From Wenyingzhuangia heitensis (GTDB taxonomy: Bacteria > Bacteroidota > Bacteroidia > Flavobacteriales > Flavobacteriaceae), in the NCBI RefSeq assembly GCF_011762155.1, contig NZ_JAASQL010000002.1, forward strand, positions 1 through 64,000: a DNA stretch of 64,000 nucleotides. Reading direction: 5' to 3'. Shown in pieces: positions 5,366-11,672 of this stretch. How positions within the stretch are numbered: position 1 is the stretch's first letter; every line of letters starts with the position of its first letter. The notes beneath the pieces were generated by a model. It was given only the letters and a program-made list of their open reading frames with translations, made no database searches and had not been told where the DNA came from. Made by a program: the position numbers and the translations under genes.

Positions 5366-5450
5366 AGTACTGAGTACAAAGTACTGAGTACAGAGTGTTA
5401 AGTAAAGTATCTAAGATAAGCTTAGGACTTTATACTTGATACTTAATACT
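5366..5450. repeat. Period-7 inverted-repeat element, hisG-hisD spacer
   Basis: The spacer reads as twelve consecutive heptads in exact phase: AGTACTG, AGTACAA, AGTACTG, AGTACAG, AGTGTTA and so on, then TTTATAC, TTGATAC, TTAATAC. The left half is built on AGTAC and the right half on its complement, so the 85 bases can fold into an imperfect hairpin in the his mRNA. It fills nearly the whole spacer. Confidence 0.75.
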
Positions 5451-5458
5451 TGCAACAA

Positions 5459-6745
5459 ATGAAAACATATATAAATCCAGCAAAAAATACATGGGAAGCA
5501 ATTACCCAAAGACCTGCTAAGGAAGCAAATACCTTAGGAGCTACTGTAAAAGCTGTTTTTGATGACATAAAAAAAGAAGGAGATAAAGCTTTAAAGGACT
5601 ATACTCAAAAATTTGATGGAGTTACTTTGTTAAATTTACGAGTTTCTCAACAAGAAATTGATACTGCCATTCCTTTGGTTTCACAAGAGCTGAAAGATGC
5701 TATTATATTGGCTAAAAACAATGTTGAGAAATTTCATACTTCTCAAAAAATTGAGAAAAAAGTGATTTCTACTACAAATGGAGTAGATTGTTGGCAAGAA
5801 ATGAAACCTATAGAAAAAGTAGGTTTGTATATTCCAGGAGGTTCAGCACCTTTGTTTTCTACTATTTTAATGTTAGGAATTCCTGCAAAAATTGCTGGAG
5901 CAAGCAAAATTGTTTTGTGTACACCTCCATCAAAAGATGGAAGTATTCATCCAGCTATCTTATTCGCAGCACAATTAGTAGGAGTTACAGAAATTTATAA
6001 ATTGGGTGGTATTCAGGCCATTGCAGCCATGACGTATGGAACGGAATCTGTACCTAATGTTTATAAAATATTTGGACCTGGAAATCAGTTTGTAACGGCA
6101 GCAAAACAATATGCTACAACACAAGGTTTGGCTATTGATATGCCAGCAGGACCAAGTGAAGTTATGGTGGTTGCAGATAAAGATGCAGATGCAAGTTTTG
6201 TGGTGGCAGATTTATTATCGCAAGCAGAGCACGGAGCAGATAGTCAAGTAATTTTAGTTACAGCTTCTCAACAATTAATAGATGAAGTTCAAATAGAGTT
6301 AGATAAACAATTGGTAGAACTACCAAGAAAAGAAATTGCAGAAGGAGCAATTGAAAACTCTAGTGCTATTTTAATAGATAGCATTGCAGATCAGAATGAA
6401 TTGATTAACGCATATGCACCAGAACATTTAATTTTAAATGTATTGAATGAAGATGTGTATATTTCTGAAATTGTAAATGCAGGATCTGTTTTTATTGGAC
6501 CATTGACACCTGAGAGTGCGGGAGATTATGCATCAGGAACCAATCATACTTTACCTACAAACGGATATGCAAGAATGTATAGTGGTGTAAATTTAGATGC
6601 ATTTACTAAGAAAATCACGTATCAAAAAATCACCAAAGAGGGAATTCAGAATATTGGACCCGCTATAGAATTAATGGCTGCTGCCGAAGGTTTAGATGCA
6701 CACAAAAATGCAGTTACGTTAAGATTGGAGAGTTTAAAGAAATAA
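5459..6745 (+). CDS. hisD: Histidinol dehydrogenase
   Basis: NAD-dependent oxidation of histidinol to histidine in two steps, the last steps of the pathway. The 428-residue length is normal. Visible family segments include GLYIPGGSAPLFSTILMLG, the GPGNQFVTAAK nucleotide-binding region, DMPAGPSEVMVVAD, and the catalytic/zinc region with DLLSQAEHGADSQ and YAPEHLIL. The ATG at 5459 is preferred to the in-frame TTG at 5450, which lies at the end of the repeat element. It is the second gene of the his operon. Confidence 0.96.
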   Translation: MKTYINPAKNTWEAITQRPAKEANTLGATVKAVFDDIKKEGDKALKDYTQKFDGVTLLNLRVSQQEIDTAIPLVSQELKDAIILAKNNVEKFHTSQKIEKKVISTTNGVDCWQEMKPIEKVGLYIPGGSAPLFSTILMLGIPAKIAGASKIVLCTPPSKDGSIHPAILFAAQLVGVTEIYKLGGIQAIAAMTYGTESVPNVYKIFGPGNQFVTAAKQYATTQGLAIDMPAGPSEVMVVADKDADASFVVADLLSQAEHGADSQVILVTASQQLIDEVQIELDKQLVELPRKEIAEGAIENSSAILIDSIADQNELINAYAPEHLILNVLNEDVYISEIVNAGSVFIGPLTPESAGDYASGTNHTLPTNGYARMYSGVNLDAFTKKITYQKITKEGIQNIGPAIELMAAAEGLDAHKNAVTLRLESLKK

Positions 6746-6749
6746 GAGA

Positions 6750-6792
6750 AGTTAAGAATTCAGGAGTTAAGAAGTTTTAGAACTTAATACTA
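6750..6792. repeat. Period-8 repeat element, hisD-hisC spacer
   Basis: AGTTAAGA occurs twice (first at 6750), separated by ATTCAGG and followed by AGTTTTAG and AACTTAAT. It is a short, degraded relative of the octamer element at 9344-9403. Confidence 0.5.
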
Positions 6793-6799
6793 GTTAAAT

Positions 6800-7843
6800 A
6801 TGAATTTTGATATCAATAAAATAATAAGAGAAAATGTAGCCAATATGAAAGCTTACTCTTCAGCAAGAGATGAGTTTACAGGAGCTACAGATGATATGGT
6901 CTTTTTAGATGCGAATGAAAATCCGTTTGAAAACGGAGTAAATCGTTATCCTGACCCAATGCAAAAGACAGTCAAGTCAGAATTGGCTAAAATTAAAGGA
7001 GTGGCTCCTAAAAACATTTTATTAGGGAATGGATCTGATGAAGTCATTGATTTAATTTTACGTGCTTTTTGTGAACCTAAGATTGATAATATCATCACAT
7101 TGCCACCATCGTACGGAATGTATGATGTATCGGCAAATTTGAATAATATCACTATTAAAGAAGTTCCTTTAAGAGAAAATTTTCAACCTGATATTGCTAA
7201 AATATTAGAAACAGTTGACGAAAATACTAAAGTGATTTTCTTATGTTCTCCAAACAATCCATCTGGAAACTTGTTTGATTATGCAAACGTAAAAGCAATT
7301 GTAGAAGGTTTTAACGGTTTGGTTGTGGTTGATGAAGCTTATATTGATTTTGCATCAGAACCAAGCTGGATTACTCGTTTGGCAAAACATCCAAATTTAA
7401 TTGTAAGTCAGACTTTATCTAAAGCTTACGGAATGGCTGGAATACGTTTGGGAGTTTGTTATGCATCAACAGAAATTATTACGGTGTTAAACAAAATTAA
7501 ACCTCCATATAACGTAAACGAATTAACACAGCAAAAAGCATTAGAACGTTTACTGGCTTATGAAGATGTACAAGAGGAGATTGAAGCTATTTTGGTTGAG
7601 CGTGATAATTTAGAAATTGCATTAAAGGAAATTTCTTATGTAGAAAAAATATACCCTAGCGATGCCAATTTTTTATTGGTAAAGGTAGATGATGCAACCA
7701 AACGATACAATCAATTAATAGAAAAAGGAATTGTAGTTAGAAATAGAACCACTCAAGTACTGTGTGAGAACACGTTACGATTTACAGTGGGGACAATTAA
7801 AGAAAACGTTGCCTTAATGAAGGCTTTGAAGGAGTTAGAGTAG
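6800..7843 (+). CDS. hisC: Histidinol-phosphate aminotransferase
   Basis: A PLP-dependent transaminase that converts imidazole acetol phosphate and glutamate to histidinol phosphate. Fold type I features are visible: LDANENPFENG near the start, GNGSDEVIDLI, the PPSYGMY segment, VVVDEAYIDF with the Asp that contacts the cofactor, and SQTLSKAYGMAGIRLG with the PLP lysine. The 347-residue length is normal. The gene is followed by a truncated heptad repeat and a foreign-looking reading frame before hisB. Confidence 0.96.
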   Translation: MNFDINKIIRENVANMKAYSSARDEFTGATDDMVFLDANENPFENGVNRYPDPMQKTVKSELAKIKGVAPKNILLGNGSDEVIDLILRAFCEPKIDNIITLPPSYGMYDVSANLNNITIKEVPLRENFQPDIAKILETVDENTKVIFLCSPNNPSGNLFDYANVKAIVEGFNGLVVVDEAYIDFASEPSWITRLAKHPNLIVSQTLSKAYGMAGIRLGVCYASTEIITVLNKIKPPYNVNELTQQKALERLLAYEDVQEEIEAILVERDNLEIALKEISYVEKIYPSDANFLLVKVDDATKRYNQLIEKGIVVRNRTTQVLCENTLRFTVGTIKENVALMKALKELE

Positions 7844-7855
7844 TACAAAGTACTG
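7842..7855. repeat. Truncated period-7 element after hisC
   Basis: AGTACAA and AGTACTG follow the hisC stop directly. The sequence then leaves the heptad pattern and no right arm is seen. It looks like the surviving left arm of an element of the kind found in other his spacers, interrupted by the orphan reading frame. Confidence 0.45.
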
Positions 7856-7861
7856 ATATTT

Positions 7862-8146
7862 GAAATTGAAAAGGGAATAAGAAGTGGTTTAAATGGAGTT
7901 ATTCATTTTTATGGTTTTACAGAAACTAGAAATGATCAGAATATCTTATTTAAGAAAGTGAAAGAAGATGAATTTTTATTATTACGAATTTCAAGAGATA
8001 AAATAGCTGATTTATACTATGTAAAATATGAAAAAGGAATTAGTTCTAATAATTATTTACATGAAGAAGAAAAAATGTTAAAACTTGGTTTTGATCCTAA
8101 TGAGGTTGAAAGTTTAAACATATTGAAAAAATATATAAACAATTAA
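7862..8146 (+). pseudogene. Orphan reading frame between hisC and hisB, probably 5'-truncated
   Basis: The frame is open from just after the hisC stop to TAA at 8144-8146 and reads like a real protein (for example GIRSGLNGVIHFYGF, then KVKEDEFLLLRISRDK and EVESLNILKKYINN). No ATG precedes it; the only usual start is a GTG at 7958, which would give 62 residues and discard a coding-like upstream part. It matches no family I recognise. It sits between a cut-off heptad repeat and a CCTGAAACAAGTTCAGG palindrome, which suggests an insertion into the hisC-hisB spacer. It may be a decayed gene or one with an unusual start. Confidence 0.45.
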
Positions 8147-8158
8147 GTTATAATAATA

Positions 8159-8177
8159 TCCTGAAACAAGTTCAGGA
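8159..8177. repeat. CTGAAACAAGTTCAG palindromic repeat, copy 1
   Basis: TCCTGAAACAAGTTCAGGA is an imperfect palindrome just before hisB. Two relatives occur at 55.78 and 55.90 kb. Similar short palindromes are, from general knowledge, dispersed between genes in Bacteroidetes genomes. Confidence 0.65.
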
Positions 8178-8195
8178 TTGATTAACAAGTTAATC

Positions 8196-9335
8196 ATGAA
8201 AAAAGTTTTATTTATAGATAGAGACGGTACACTTTGTATAGAGCCGCCAGTAGATTATCAGTTAGATAGTTTAGAAAAGTTAGAGTTTTACCCAAAAGTT
8301 TTTCAATACATGGCAAGAATTGCTGAGGAGTTGGATTACGAATTAGTGATGGTGACCAATCAAGATGGATTGGGAACAGACTCTTTTCCTGAAGATACTT
8401 TTTGGCCTGCTCAGAACAAAGTAATTGATGCTTTTAAAAACGAAGGTGTAGAATTTGCAGCTGTTCATATTGATAAAACATTTCCTCATGAAAATGCAGA
8501 AACTCGCAAACCAAGAACAGGTTTGTTAACACAGTATTTTGACAAGGAAAAATACGATTTAGAAAATTCTTTTGTATTAGGTGATAGAATCACAGATATG
8601 GAATTGGCTAAAAATTTAGGAGCAAAAGGAATCTTTTTATCAGAAAACCCTGAATTAGGAGCTGATGAAACAGAAGCTGATGCAAAAGCAATTCACGATT
8701 GTATAGCGTTGACATCAACTGACTGGAAAGAAATCTATGAGTTTTTAAAATTAGAAGATAGAGTTTCTGAAATTACTAGAAATACCAACGAAACTAAAAT
8801 TTACATCAAACTAAATTTAGACGGTTCTGGTAAAAATGATATTTCTACAGGAGTAAAGTTTTTTGATCATATGTTAGATCAAATTGGTCGTCATGGAGCC
8901 ATGGATTTAACCGTAAAAGTAGATGGAGATTTAGAAGTAGATGAACATCACACTATAGAAGATACCATGATTGCTTTGGGAGAATTATTTAACAAAGCAT
9001 TAGGTAATAAATTAGGAATAGAACGTTACGGGTTCTGTTTGCCAATGGATGATTGTTTGGCACAAGCAGCGGTTGATTTTGGCGGAAGACCTTGGTTGGT
9101 TTGGGAAGCAGATTTTAAACGTGAAATGATTGGTGACATGCCAACAGAAATGTTTTTACATTTGTTTAAATCGTTTACAGATGGAGCAAAATGTAATTTA
9201 AACATTAAGGCAGAAGGAGCTAACGAACATCATAAAATAGAAGGAATTTTTAAAGCTTTTGCAAAAGCAATGAAAATGGCTGTAAAACGTGATGCGAATA
9301 AAATGTTTTTACCAAGTACAAAAGGAGTATTGTAG
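8196..9335 (+). CDS. hisB: Bifunctional histidinol-phosphatase / imidazoleglycerol-phosphate dehydratase
   Basis: A fused enzyme for two histidine steps. Residues 1-165 are a HAD-type phosphatase with the nucleophile motif FIDRDGTL and a late [11 protein letters not shown] motif. Residues about 185-379 are the IGP dehydratase domain, with [27 protein letters not shown] and [17 protein letters not shown], which supply the metal-binding histidines. The start is the ATG at 8196 ([11 protein letters not shown]); an upstream in-frame TTG at 8178 would run through spacer sequence. This fused form occurs in enteric bacteria and in many Bacteroidetes. Confidence 0.96.
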
Positions 9336-9343
9336 AATCCAGA

Positions 9344-9403
9344 AGTTAAGAATTTAAGAAGTTAAGAATTTCCTTAATTCCTCATTTCCTTAACTCCTTA
9401 ACT
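9344..9403. repeat. Period-8 inverted-repeat element, hisB-hisH spacer
   Basis: Octamers in phase: AGTTAAGA, ATTTAAGA, AGTTAAGA, a short ATT centre, then TCCTTAAT, TCCTCATT, TCCTTAAC, TCCTTAAC. The two halves are near complements, so the element can form a hairpin of about 25 pairs in the his mRNA. It belongs to a second family alongside the heptad elements. Confidence 0.75.
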
Positions 9404-9413
9404 ACTAAAAAAT

Positions 9414-9995
9414 ATGAAAATAGTAATTATAAATTACGGAGCCGGAAATATACAATCTATCCGATTTGCGATTGAGCGATTGGGTTACGATGCTATTTTA
9501 AGCAACGATGTTGAAGAAATAAAAAATGCGGACAAAGTAATTTTTCCAGGAGTGGGAGAAGCTAGTTCTGCCATGAAAATGTTAAAAGCTACAGGATTAG
9601 ATCGCTTAATTCCGACCTTAACACAACCCGTTTTAGGAATTTGTTTGGGAATGCAGTTGATGTGTAAATACTCTGAAGAAGGAGATACAACAGGTTTAGG
9701 GATTTTTGATGTTGACGTAAAACGTTTTGAAAATATTGTAAAAGTGCCTCAGATAGGATGGAACCAAATTAGTGGATTGGGTTCTAAAATATTTAACAAT
9801 GTTAAAGAAGGTGCTTACATGTATTTGGTACACAGTTATTATGCACCAATCACCAAAGAAACCATTGCGACTACAGAATATGGAATTCAGTACGCTACAG
9901 CATTGCAAAAAAATAACTTTTACGGAGTGCAATTTCACCCAGAAAAGAGCAGTACTGACGGAGCGATGATTTTAGAGAATTTTTTAAATCTATAG
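9414..9995 (+). CDS. hisH: Imidazole glycerol phosphate synthase, glutaminase subunit
   Basis: A class I glutamine amidotransferase that delivers ammonia to HisF for ring closure. The nucleophile sits in GICLGMQLM, and the His-Glu pair in VQFHPEKSS near the C-terminus. The 193-residue length is normal. The start ATG follows the octamer repeat by 10 bases. hisA lies between it and its partner hisF, a common order. Confidence 0.96.
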   Translation: MKIVIINYGAGNIQSIRFAIERLGYDAILSNDVEEIKNADKVIFPGVGEASSAMKMLKATGLDRLIPTLTQPVLGICLGMQLMCKYSEEGDTTGLGIFDVDVKRFENIVKVPQIGWNQISGLGSKIFNNVKEGAYMYLVHSYYAPITKETIATTEYGIQYATALQKNNFYGVQFHPEKSSTDGAMILENFLNL

Positions 9996-10004
9996 ATTTA
10001 ATAA

Positions 10005-10031
10005 AGTACAGAGTATTCAGTACTTAATACT
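10005..10031. repeat. Short period-7 element, hisH-hisA spacer
   Basis: AGTACAG, AGTATTC, AGTACTT, AATACT in exact seven-base phase: a minimal four-unit copy of the heptad inverted-repeat element. Confidence 0.55.
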
Positions 10032-10038
10032 ATTATAA

Positions 10039-10767
10039 ATGAGAATAATACCAGCCATAGATATTATAGACGGACAATGTGTACGTTTGTCAAAAGGAGA
10101 TTACAATACCAAAAAAGTATATAATGAGAATCCGCTAGAAATTGCCAAGCAATTTGAAGCACATGGAATTACACATTTACATTTGGTAGATTTAGATGGA
10201 GCAAAGGCAAGTCATATTGTAAATCATAAAGTGTTAGAAGAGATTGCAACCAAAACAACATTAAAAATTGATTTTGGTGGTGGTTTAAAAACCGATGAAG
10301 ATTTAAAAATTGCTTTTGAATCTGGAGCGAATCAAATTACTGGGGGAAGTATTGCAGTAAAAAATCCAGCAGTTTTTAAAAGTTGGATTTCTAAATTTGG
10401 TGCAGATAAAATCATTTTAGGAGCCGATGCAAATAATGAAAAAATTGCAGTAAGCGGTTGGTTAGAAGAATCTGATGAAGAGTTGATTCCTTTTATTCAA
10501 GGATATCAAAAAGAAGGAATTCAGTATGTAATTTGTACAGATATTGCCAAGGACGGAATGTTACAAGGTCCTTCTTTTGATTTGTACGAAAAAATATTAA
10601 AACAATGCCCTAACGTAAAATTGATTGCAAGTGGAGGAATTTCTACTTTTGATGAATTGCCTAAATTAAAAGAATTTGGATGCGAAGGTACTATTGTAGG
10701 AAAAGCGATTTATGAGAATAGAATTAGCTTAAAACAATTGGAAGATTTTATTATAGGTACAAAGTAA
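10039..10767 (+). CDS. hisA: ProFAR isomerase
   Basis: Phosphoribosylformimino-5-aminoimidazole carboxamide ribotide isomerase, a (beta/alpha)8 barrel that carries out an Amadori rearrangement. Visible features are [17 protein letters not shown] with the catalytic Asp, [20 protein letters not shown] and the second-half phosphate site [12 protein letters not shown]. The 242-residue length is normal. It is a paralogue of the neighbouring hisF. Confidence 0.96.
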
Positions 10768-10769
10768 AT

Positions 10770-10838
10770 AGTACTGAGTACAAAGTTTTAATTGTTAGAA
10801 TTTGAGTATTTAATACTCTGTACTAACTACTTAATACT
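10770..10838. repeat. Period-7 inverted-repeat element, hisA-hisF spacer
   Basis: Ten units in exact heptad phase, from AGTACTG, AGTACAA, AGTTTTA to AATACTC, TGTACTA, ACTACTT, AATACT. The halves are partly complementary. It occupies almost the whole spacer and ends eight bases before the hisF ATG. Confidence 0.75.
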
Positions 10839-10845
10839 AAAAAAT

Positions 10846-11601
10846 ATGTTAGCAAAAAGAATAGTTCCTTGTTTGGATATAAAAAATGGTCGTACTGTTA
10901 AAGGTGTGAACTTTGTAGATTTACGAGATGCAGGAGATCCTGTAGAGTTGGCAAAAAAATATGCAGAAACGGGAGCGGATGAATTGGTGTTTTTAGACAT
11001 ATCTGCAACAGAAGAACGCAGAAGAACATTGGTGAATTTAGTTCGTGATGTAGCTGCACAAGTAAACATTCCGTTTACCGTTGGGGGTGGAATATCCTCT
11101 GTAGAAGATGTAGATATTTTATTGCAAAATGGAGCAGATAAAGTTTCTATCAATTCATCAGCAGTAAAAAGACCACAGTTGGTGAATGAATTGTCTCAGA
11201 AATTTGGAAGTCAATGTGTAGTAGTAGCTATTGATGCAAAGAAGATTGATGGAGAATGGATTGTACATTTGGTAGGAGGAAAAGTACCTACGGAATTAAA
11301 TTTATTCGATTGGGCAAAAGAAGTAGAAGAAAGAGGAGCAGGAGAAATTTTGTTTACATCTATGAATAATGATGGAACGAAAGATGGTTTTGCAAATGAT
11401 GCTTTAGCACGTTTGTCAGAAGAATTAAACATTCCCATTATTGCAAGTGGTGGAGCAGGAAACATGCAACACTTTGTAGATACGTTTAAAGATGGTAAAG
11501 CAGATGCGGCCTTGGCTGCAAGTGTGTTTCACTTTCAAGAAATTGAAATACCAGATTTAAAAGAAGAATTAAAAAAACAGGGAATTCCTGTGAGATTGTA
11601 A
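10846..11601 (+). CDS. hisF: Imidazole glycerol phosphate synthase, cyclase subunit
   Basis: Uses ammonia from HisH to form imidazole glycerol phosphate and AICAR. The (beta/alpha)8 barrel begins [16 protein letters not shown] with the catalytic Asp; the second catalytic Asp lies in [14 protein letters not shown]. Phosphate-site glycines are in [12 protein letters not shown] and IASGGAGN. The ATG at 10846 gives the usual 251 residues; an in-frame upstream extension to 10792 is only translated repeat sequence. Confidence 0.96.
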
Positions 11602-11604
11602 AAT

Positions 11605-11672
11605 TGTACAAGGTAGAAAGTACAGAGCATAAATAAACGTGACTCAATACTTACTATTCAGTACTCAGTACT
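11605..11672. repeat. Period-7 inverted-repeat element, hisF-hisIE spacer
   Basis: Ten units in seven-base phase: TGTACAA, GGTAGAA, AGTACAG, AGCATAA, ATAAACG, TGACTCA, ATACTTA, CTATTCA, GTACTCA, GTACT. The outer units are complementary across the centre. Confidence 0.7.

Follow-up and report, generated by a model that had tools for sequence, protein, structure and literature searches.

The his operon of Wenyingzhuangia heitensis (Flavobacteriaceae) lies within positions 1 to 64,000 of contig NZ_JAASQL010000002.1 (assembly GCF_011762155.1), the stretch of DNA analyzed here and referred to below as the window. Most of its spacers are built of inverted repeats of tandem words of seven or eight nucleotides (heptads or octads). 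A heptad element with a left arm of AGTACNN words and a complementary right arm spans the whole hisG–hisD spacer (5366–5453). Further heptad elements are located in hisH–hisA (10005–10031), in hisA–hisF (10756–10838), where the left arm overlaps the last hisA codons, and in hisF–hisIE (11605–11672). Octad words form both arms of an element in hisB–hisH (9341–9405) and a degraded element in hisD–hisC (6748–6799). In addition, a cut-off heptad arm overlaps the end of hisC (7839–7857); in Wenyingzhuangia aestuarii (L057) the same hisC–hisB spacer holds a full heptad element. The window elements are located between his genes, not in 23S rRNA.

We scored each of the 32 gaps of 30–900 nt between the open reading frames (ORFs) of the window by its most periodic 28-nt stretch (lag 7 or lag 8), using 200 dinucleotide shuffles per gap as control. 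Six gaps are periodic (reached by no more than 4 of 200 shuffles), and all six are his spacers, with lengths of 43–95 nt. Lag 7 defines hisG–hisD, hisH–hisA and hisF–hisIE (0/200 shuffles each) and hisA–hisF (1/200), all within the 0–4 range, while lag 8 defines hisB–hisH (0/200) and hisD–hisC (1/200). A previous sequence-only reading of this DNA had described these heptads and octamers, the cut-off arm and their restriction to the his spacers, and its positions and description hold, except for an octamer-like stretch at 55.84 kb that is not significant against the shuffles of the gap scan. Autocorrelation over whole spacers is in line with the scan for most of them: lag-7 z is 5.0 for hisG–hisD and 4.5 for both hisA–hisF and hisF–hisIE, and lag-8 z is 7.2 for hisB–hisH and 2.7 for hisD–hisC; hisH–hisA, a short spacer, has a lag-7 z of 1.7.

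The further claim that each element can fold as a hairpin stands for part of the set. RNA folding gives z values of −4.9 for hisG–hisD (−5.3 in a second run), −3.1 for hisF–hisIE and −2.8 for hisB–hisH, where a stem between complementary arms is clear. The stem is weak in hisA–hisF (−1.8) and hisH–hisA (−1.7), and absent in hisD–hisC (+1.0), which has no stable fold.

AGTACNN arrays are spread through the genome and the genus. In the 3.67-Mb genome (26 contigs), AGTACNNAGTACNNAGTAC has 42 + 40 matches with up to two mismatches, overlapping registers included, against 0 + 1 for the reversed pattern. With up to one mismatch, seven genomes of the genus contain 22–55 matches each and the control none. 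Altogether 21 of the 60 genomes searched are matched at this threshold, those outside the genus with 0–6 matches and, in one genome, 11. The octamer pattern GTTAAGNAGTTAAGNA, with up to two mismatches, has no overall excess in the same genome (73 matches vs 100 in the control), and its overlapping matches gather at a few sites. The recurrence of arrays proposed by the sequence-only reading is thus found for the heptads, in excess in their own genome and present in 7/7 genomes of the genus, and not as an overall excess for the octamers; its refuting case, namely no excess over shuffled sequence or absence elsewhere, is not what we observe. By HisA, the closest relatives of the window are W. aestuarii (96%) and Wenyingzhuangia sp. 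2_MG-2023 (95%).

Outside the his operon, 16 of 20 array sites in this genome lie between two codirectional genes and several arrays lie in biosynthetic operons, according to our reading of the neighboring ORFs. The other four comprise one array in frame within a gene, two single weak matches inside ORFs, and one site beside a tRNA. In a 1112-residue GatB–AspRS fusion protein (L032, 843–4181, minus strand), an AGTACNN heptad array is found in frame at 2667–2747. The Pfam domains stop at residue 476 and restart at 538, with the array as the linker between them, as if a spacer element had turned coding.

Among the ORFs listed for long hisH–hisA spacers of several genera is one of ~118 codons, located between heptad arms. 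Two such spacer ORFs, of two types, match PF05635 with 130 and 64 bits (cut-off 33.8). This family, S23p, is the 23S-rRNA-intervening-sequence protein, a four-helix bundle of ~118 residues. Each of the solved relatives, 2gsc (XCC0516) and 2rld, contains five chains, and the available text of PMC4990558 describes the Xanthomonas protein as a toroidal homopentamer of unknown function. PF05635 is present in 7/7 genomes of the genus and, among the matches listed, in 43/60 genomes of the family and 0/14 control genomes; it was not found in a phage collection of 50,697 records. No S23p ORF lies inside the window elements, and none of the PF05635 matches of this genome falls in the window. A broken S23p copy is located elsewhere in the genome (L163, ~1430–1890; G000:C2, ~140.3 kb), ~1.1 kb from an AGTAC array without an ORF (a solo array).

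The association between S23p and periodic arms, which a reading of the window alone could not reveal, recurs across many S23p loci. We collected 129 intact S23p entries from 122 loci, leaving out broken copies; five are duplicates, counted in the analyses of flank period, pairing and cluster period. Their flanks give z values of 53 at lag 7, 39 at lag 14 and 26 at lag 21, and no other lag between 4 and 22 exceeds 1.9. (We give no weight to a count of 125/129 entries with a periodic arm, which lacks a shuffled control.) The left arm is closer to the complement of the right arm than to the right arm itself in 68 of 96 cases, with 25 in the reverse sense and 3 ties. Arms of the same element pair at −18.3 kcal/mol, compared with −9.0 when one is taken from another cluster and −10.3 after shuffling, and own-arm pairing beats swapped arms in 110/129 entries. 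Outside his and with duplicates removed, the upstream gene is codirectional with S23p in 96/96 entries that have such a gene, and both neighbors are codirectional in 85/97 (100/100 and 87/101 with duplicates). Full copies occur in many unrelated operons.

The arm words correspond to the protein that they flank. S23p sequences were grouped into 25 clusters by an average-linkage cut, which is not a tree. After removal of duplicates and of pairs with a homologous neighbor gene, arms from different genera have a similarity of 0.149 when their proteins share a cluster (287 pairs) and of 0.042 when they do not, a difference reached by 0/2000 permutations. The values are 0.145 vs 0.042 without the largest cluster, and 0.180 vs 0.043 before duplicates and homologous sites outside his are removed. 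Inter-genus similarity remains at 0.04–0.05 below 50% protein identity and rises to 0.129 at 50–60% (186 pairs), 0.171 at 60–70% (74 pairs) and 0.274 above 70% (11 pairs), while different clusters within one genome or genus label have a similarity of 0.035. Similar arms accompanying similar proteins at unrelated sites are expected if arms and protein travel together. The period also follows the cluster: of 14 clusters tested, ten are heptadic, with z values at lag 7 from 6.9 to 21.6; one, cluster 14 (seven entries, four genus labels), is octadic, with z 8.7 at lag 8 and 0.1 at lag 7; and clusters 18 and 7 show both periods.

In the window, the heptad spacers and the cut-off arm have cluster-16 S23p arms as their best match, and so share termini with an autonomous-type relative. 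For the octads this is less clear: hisD–hisC is matched best by cluster-23 arms of the genus and then by L172 (cluster 18, from another genus), and hisB–hisH by L172 and cluster 23 about equally, which makes the octad link weaker than the heptad link. By eye, cluster-23 genes lie directly before, or close to, a gene starting MIINKLHYISQGAT, which we take to be thiE-like. In W. heitensis, an octad array without S23p precedes this gene.

Periodic spacers are found in genomes that have S23p. The comparison used the 17 family genomes in which PF05635 had no match and a hand-picked 24 of the 43 in which it did. We located hisA in 15 of the former and 21 of the latter, and 20-kb stretches around it were used from 15 and 20 (G018 was left out), of which 19 of the 20 positive stretches yielded spacers. 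Codirectional spacers of the negative genomes have a lag-7 z of −1.0, with 0/58 strongly periodic (15 genomes), compared with 12.3 and 20/109 in the positive ones (20 stretches). Counted by genome, strongly periodic spacers occur in 11/19 positives vs 0/15 negatives. Fisher tests, without correction for phylogeny, give 2e-4 by spacers and 5e-4 by genomes. For divergent or convergent spacers, z is 1.4 in the positive and 0.2 in the negative genomes. We found no intact S23p ORF within these stretches; a broken copy (G007:C12, 505.0 kb) lies inside L304, and its adjoining spacers were kept in the test.

Across relatives, the period is kept while the words change. In 243 spacers of 30–130 nt from 80 Flavobacteriaceae his loci, the lag-7 match is 0.389 vs 0.300 in shuffles (z 31), with z values of 22 at lag 14, 8 at lag 21, 4 at lag 8, and between −6.4 and 3.0 at the remaining lags from 4 to 24. 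Dropping the two Wenyingzhuangia loci and Ochrovirga leaves a lag-7 z of 22, and coding sequence gives −5.5. The words, compared by eye, vary by genus and spacer, with GATACC types in Ochrovirga, TAGC types in Flavicella, ATCTCAT in Aquimarina, and GAACAAC in one W. aestuarii spacer. The suggestion of the sequence-only reading that the period itself is under selection therefore holds in modified form: relatives keep period 7 in their his spacers as the word changes, and both word and period track the protein cluster.

Turnover is visible at single spacers of seven congeneric genomes. hisH–hisA holds S23p between heptad arms in four, an AGTAC solo in one, a CGAACAA array in one and a TTGG type in one. 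hisA–hisF holds AGTAC arrays in three, and GTAACAA/GATACC, GATACC with another ORF, TTGGTAN and GTTGTTA types in the others. Ahead of a thiolase gene, we observe by eye S23p in two, AGC-type arrays in three and octad-like arrays in two, so that 7/7 hold an array or S23p. A WecA-like site appears by eye to be empty in two congeners, and no target-site duplication was defined there. For 14 solo spacers of the congeners, the best-matching S23p arms come from within the genus in 8.

S23p elements also occur on plasmids and in rRNA. Of 23 plasmid records with matches, 17 are cyanobacterial. Together, the flanks of these 17 loci, a few of which are near-copies of one another, give a lag-7 z of 22; singly, 15 reach at least 3.3, one is 8-periodic and one shows nothing. 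Three plasmid copies are located inside cyanobacterial cas operons (L253, L254, L257), flanked by words of 7 or 8 nt, in the arrangement cas6–S23p–cas4 twice and cas10–S23p–cmr3 once. Octad arms flank a Gemmatirosa copy and heptad arms an Azospirillum copy; in both, 0/500 shuffles reach the best 35-nt stretch on either side, though over 130 nt the Azospirillum arms give z values of only 1.4 and 1.1. The Azospirillum copy (L261) lies within a bacterial 23S rRNA match, and the heptad element there is therefore a classical intervening sequence.

Taken together, the his-spacer repeats are probably solo, ORF-less relatives of S23p intervening-sequence selfish elements, housed in operon spacers. Direct support comes from the heptad–S23p association, the arm–protein correspondence, the codirectional intercistronic position, the pairing, and the turnover at one spacer. 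Among the three explanations offered by the sequence-only reading, a mobile repeat family is favored, since the arms belong to S23p-element families and these families differ at the same spacer among congeners; movement itself we infer. A full element would consist of a left arm of tandem 7-nt words (8-nt in some clusters), an S23p gene and a complementary right arm, and would move together with its arms. Each subunit of a pentameric S23p ring may contact one word, in which case the ring geometry would set the 7- or 8-nt ruler. In the RNA, the arms would pair into a stem that RNase III would cut, as it does in 23S intervening sequences, and insertion between cistrons would then split the mRNA and destroy no gene. 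Solo copies could arise by loss of the ORF or by insertion in trans.

Several observations weigh against this interpretation. Neither movement nor binding of S23p to the arms has been observed. Raw 80-nt flanks (each side, 5-mers) show no overall arm–protein correlation (rho −0.024), similarity being raised only above 60% protein identity; the correlation became visible when the later comparison was limited to the periodic, spacer-bounded part. The W. heitensis genome has no intact AGTAC-type S23p copy at hisH–hisA, and its AGTAC solos would accordingly be relics or act in trans. For 6 of the 14 solo spacers of congeners the best arms come from other genera. The gaps of S23p-negative genomes are shorter (median 13 vs 49 nt), which may confound the presence test. 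On the octad side, the seven entries of cluster 14 represent only about three kinds of site by neighbor homology, cluster 23 shows no clear period, and the octad pattern lacks a genome-wide excess. Finally, arms mostly hold 2–5 words rather than a fixed five, a count that does not decide for or against the ring model.

In a different explanation, close to the transcript-stability option of the sequence-only reading, the hairpins would mark places between cistrons where the transcript is stabilized or processed, with S23p proteins as host regulators that bind them and the solo arrays as a regulon. The strict intercistronic position, the pairing of the arms, and the arrays that we read as lying in biosynthetic operons all agree with such RNA signals. 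We nevertheless consider them unlikely, as different families or none occupy the same spacer among congeneric genomes, solos persist in a genome without a matching intact S23p, and full copies are spread over many unrelated operons. Less likely again, a different enzyme (a transposase or reverse transcriptase) could move the arms in trans, with S23p as passenger or accessory. This would suit a protein for which the available text of PMC4990558 gives no known function, the further kinds of ORF beside heptads in his spacers, and the homology to Avd described for PF05635 in the accessible part of PMC10053308, together with a Pfam bAvd match below its threshold. The arm–S23p correspondence makes a pure passenger unlikely. 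Least probable of all is neutral slippage, in which polymerase slippage favors 7-nt units (a polymerase-footprint hypothesis for heptamer abundance is cited in the available text of PMC4692102), quasi-palindrome correction copies one arm to the other and S23p is incidental: words do turn over fast between species, but across genera and sites they stay with the protein cluster, period 8 occurs in one cluster, S23p-negative genomes have no period 7, and divergent or convergent spacers of positive genomes reach only z 1.4.

S23p is not the only ORF in these spacers. Among the ORFs listed for his spacers are S23p, GIY-YIG, acyltransferase-like and other types. The hisA–hisF spacer of L058 has a 144-residue ORF with no Pfam match beside heptad arms, and the arms may thus carry cargo other than S23p. 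A second kind of insert, a GIY-YIG ORF between CCTGAAC/GTTTCAGG-like palindromes, is found among the ORFs listed in hisC–hisB of L067 and L058 and in hisH–hisA of L109 and L134; L067 matches PF01541 and the remaining cases were judged by eye. In the window, at 7844–8196, hisC–hisB retains a palindrome of this type ahead of hisB and a 100-codon open frame (7844–8146) with no Pfam match.

The interpretation of the his-spacer repeats as solo S23p elements, if true, offers a role that can be tested for S23p, whose fold but not function is known, takes intervening sequences beyond rRNA into operon spacers, and helps to explain the long, fast-changing operon spacers of flavobacteria. It would also offer a possible origin for unexplained bacterial heptamer repeats, and predicts that the geometry of a protein oligomer sets the length of a repeat word. 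A wider proposal, which we advance tentatively and regard as doubtful, is that the intergenic heptamer arrays recorded over decades from unrelated bacteria (cyanobacterial short tandemly repeated repetitive sequences (STRR), Xanthomonas GGGAATC, Beggiatoaceae TAACTGA, and flavobacterial spacers) are one phenomenon, the arms of S23p elements. The S23p ring would read the word and its 7- or 8-nt length, each subunit taking one word, and intercistronic spread would follow an RNA route aided by S23p as an Avd-like protein.

Cyanobacterial STRR are intergenic tandem heptamer repeats. Published repeats of this kind include the intergenic tandem heptamer TAACTGA (PMC4679880) and the intergenic heptamers GGGAATC of Xanthomonas and GGGGA(C/T)T of Nostoc (PMC4692102). 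In Xanthomonas, 70–75 pairs are in inverted orientation, mostly between aligned ORFs (PMC4692102). As far as the available texts of these two papers go, the repeats resemble the his-spacer arrays in being tandem 7-mers and mostly intergenic, and no link to S23p is drawn; the Xanthomonas and Beggiatoaceae repeats were compared by description only. We found no literature joining heptamer repeats with S23p, and an earlier report in subscription journals is possible.

REP/REPIN-RAYT systems and miniature inverted-repeat transposable elements (MITEs) consist of many short gene-less inverted-repeat copies and few with a gene. S23p elements likewise have many gene-less copies and few gene-bearing ones. 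They differ in the partner gene found, which is PF05635 and not a known transposase, in having arms of tandem words, and in that a target-site duplication is not established. Avd of diversity-generating retroelements, an accessory protein of reverse transcriptases, is described as a homologue of PF05635 in the accessible part of PMC10053308; between bAvd and S23p the Pfam match is weak and below cut-off (24.1 against 40 bits), and the ORFs listed for his spacers here are the S23p, GIY-YIG, acyltransferase-like and other types given above. Close counterparts are also the 23S rRNA intervening sequences, for which the available text of PMC4990558 reports excision by RNase III and the label “selfish element”, with no mention of tandem 7/8-nt arm words as found here. 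The window copies differ from them in being ORF-less and in lying between cistrons of a protein operon, while the full elements, like these intervening sequences, carry an S23p gene between complementary arms, as in our 129 entries, 110 of which pair better than swapped arms.

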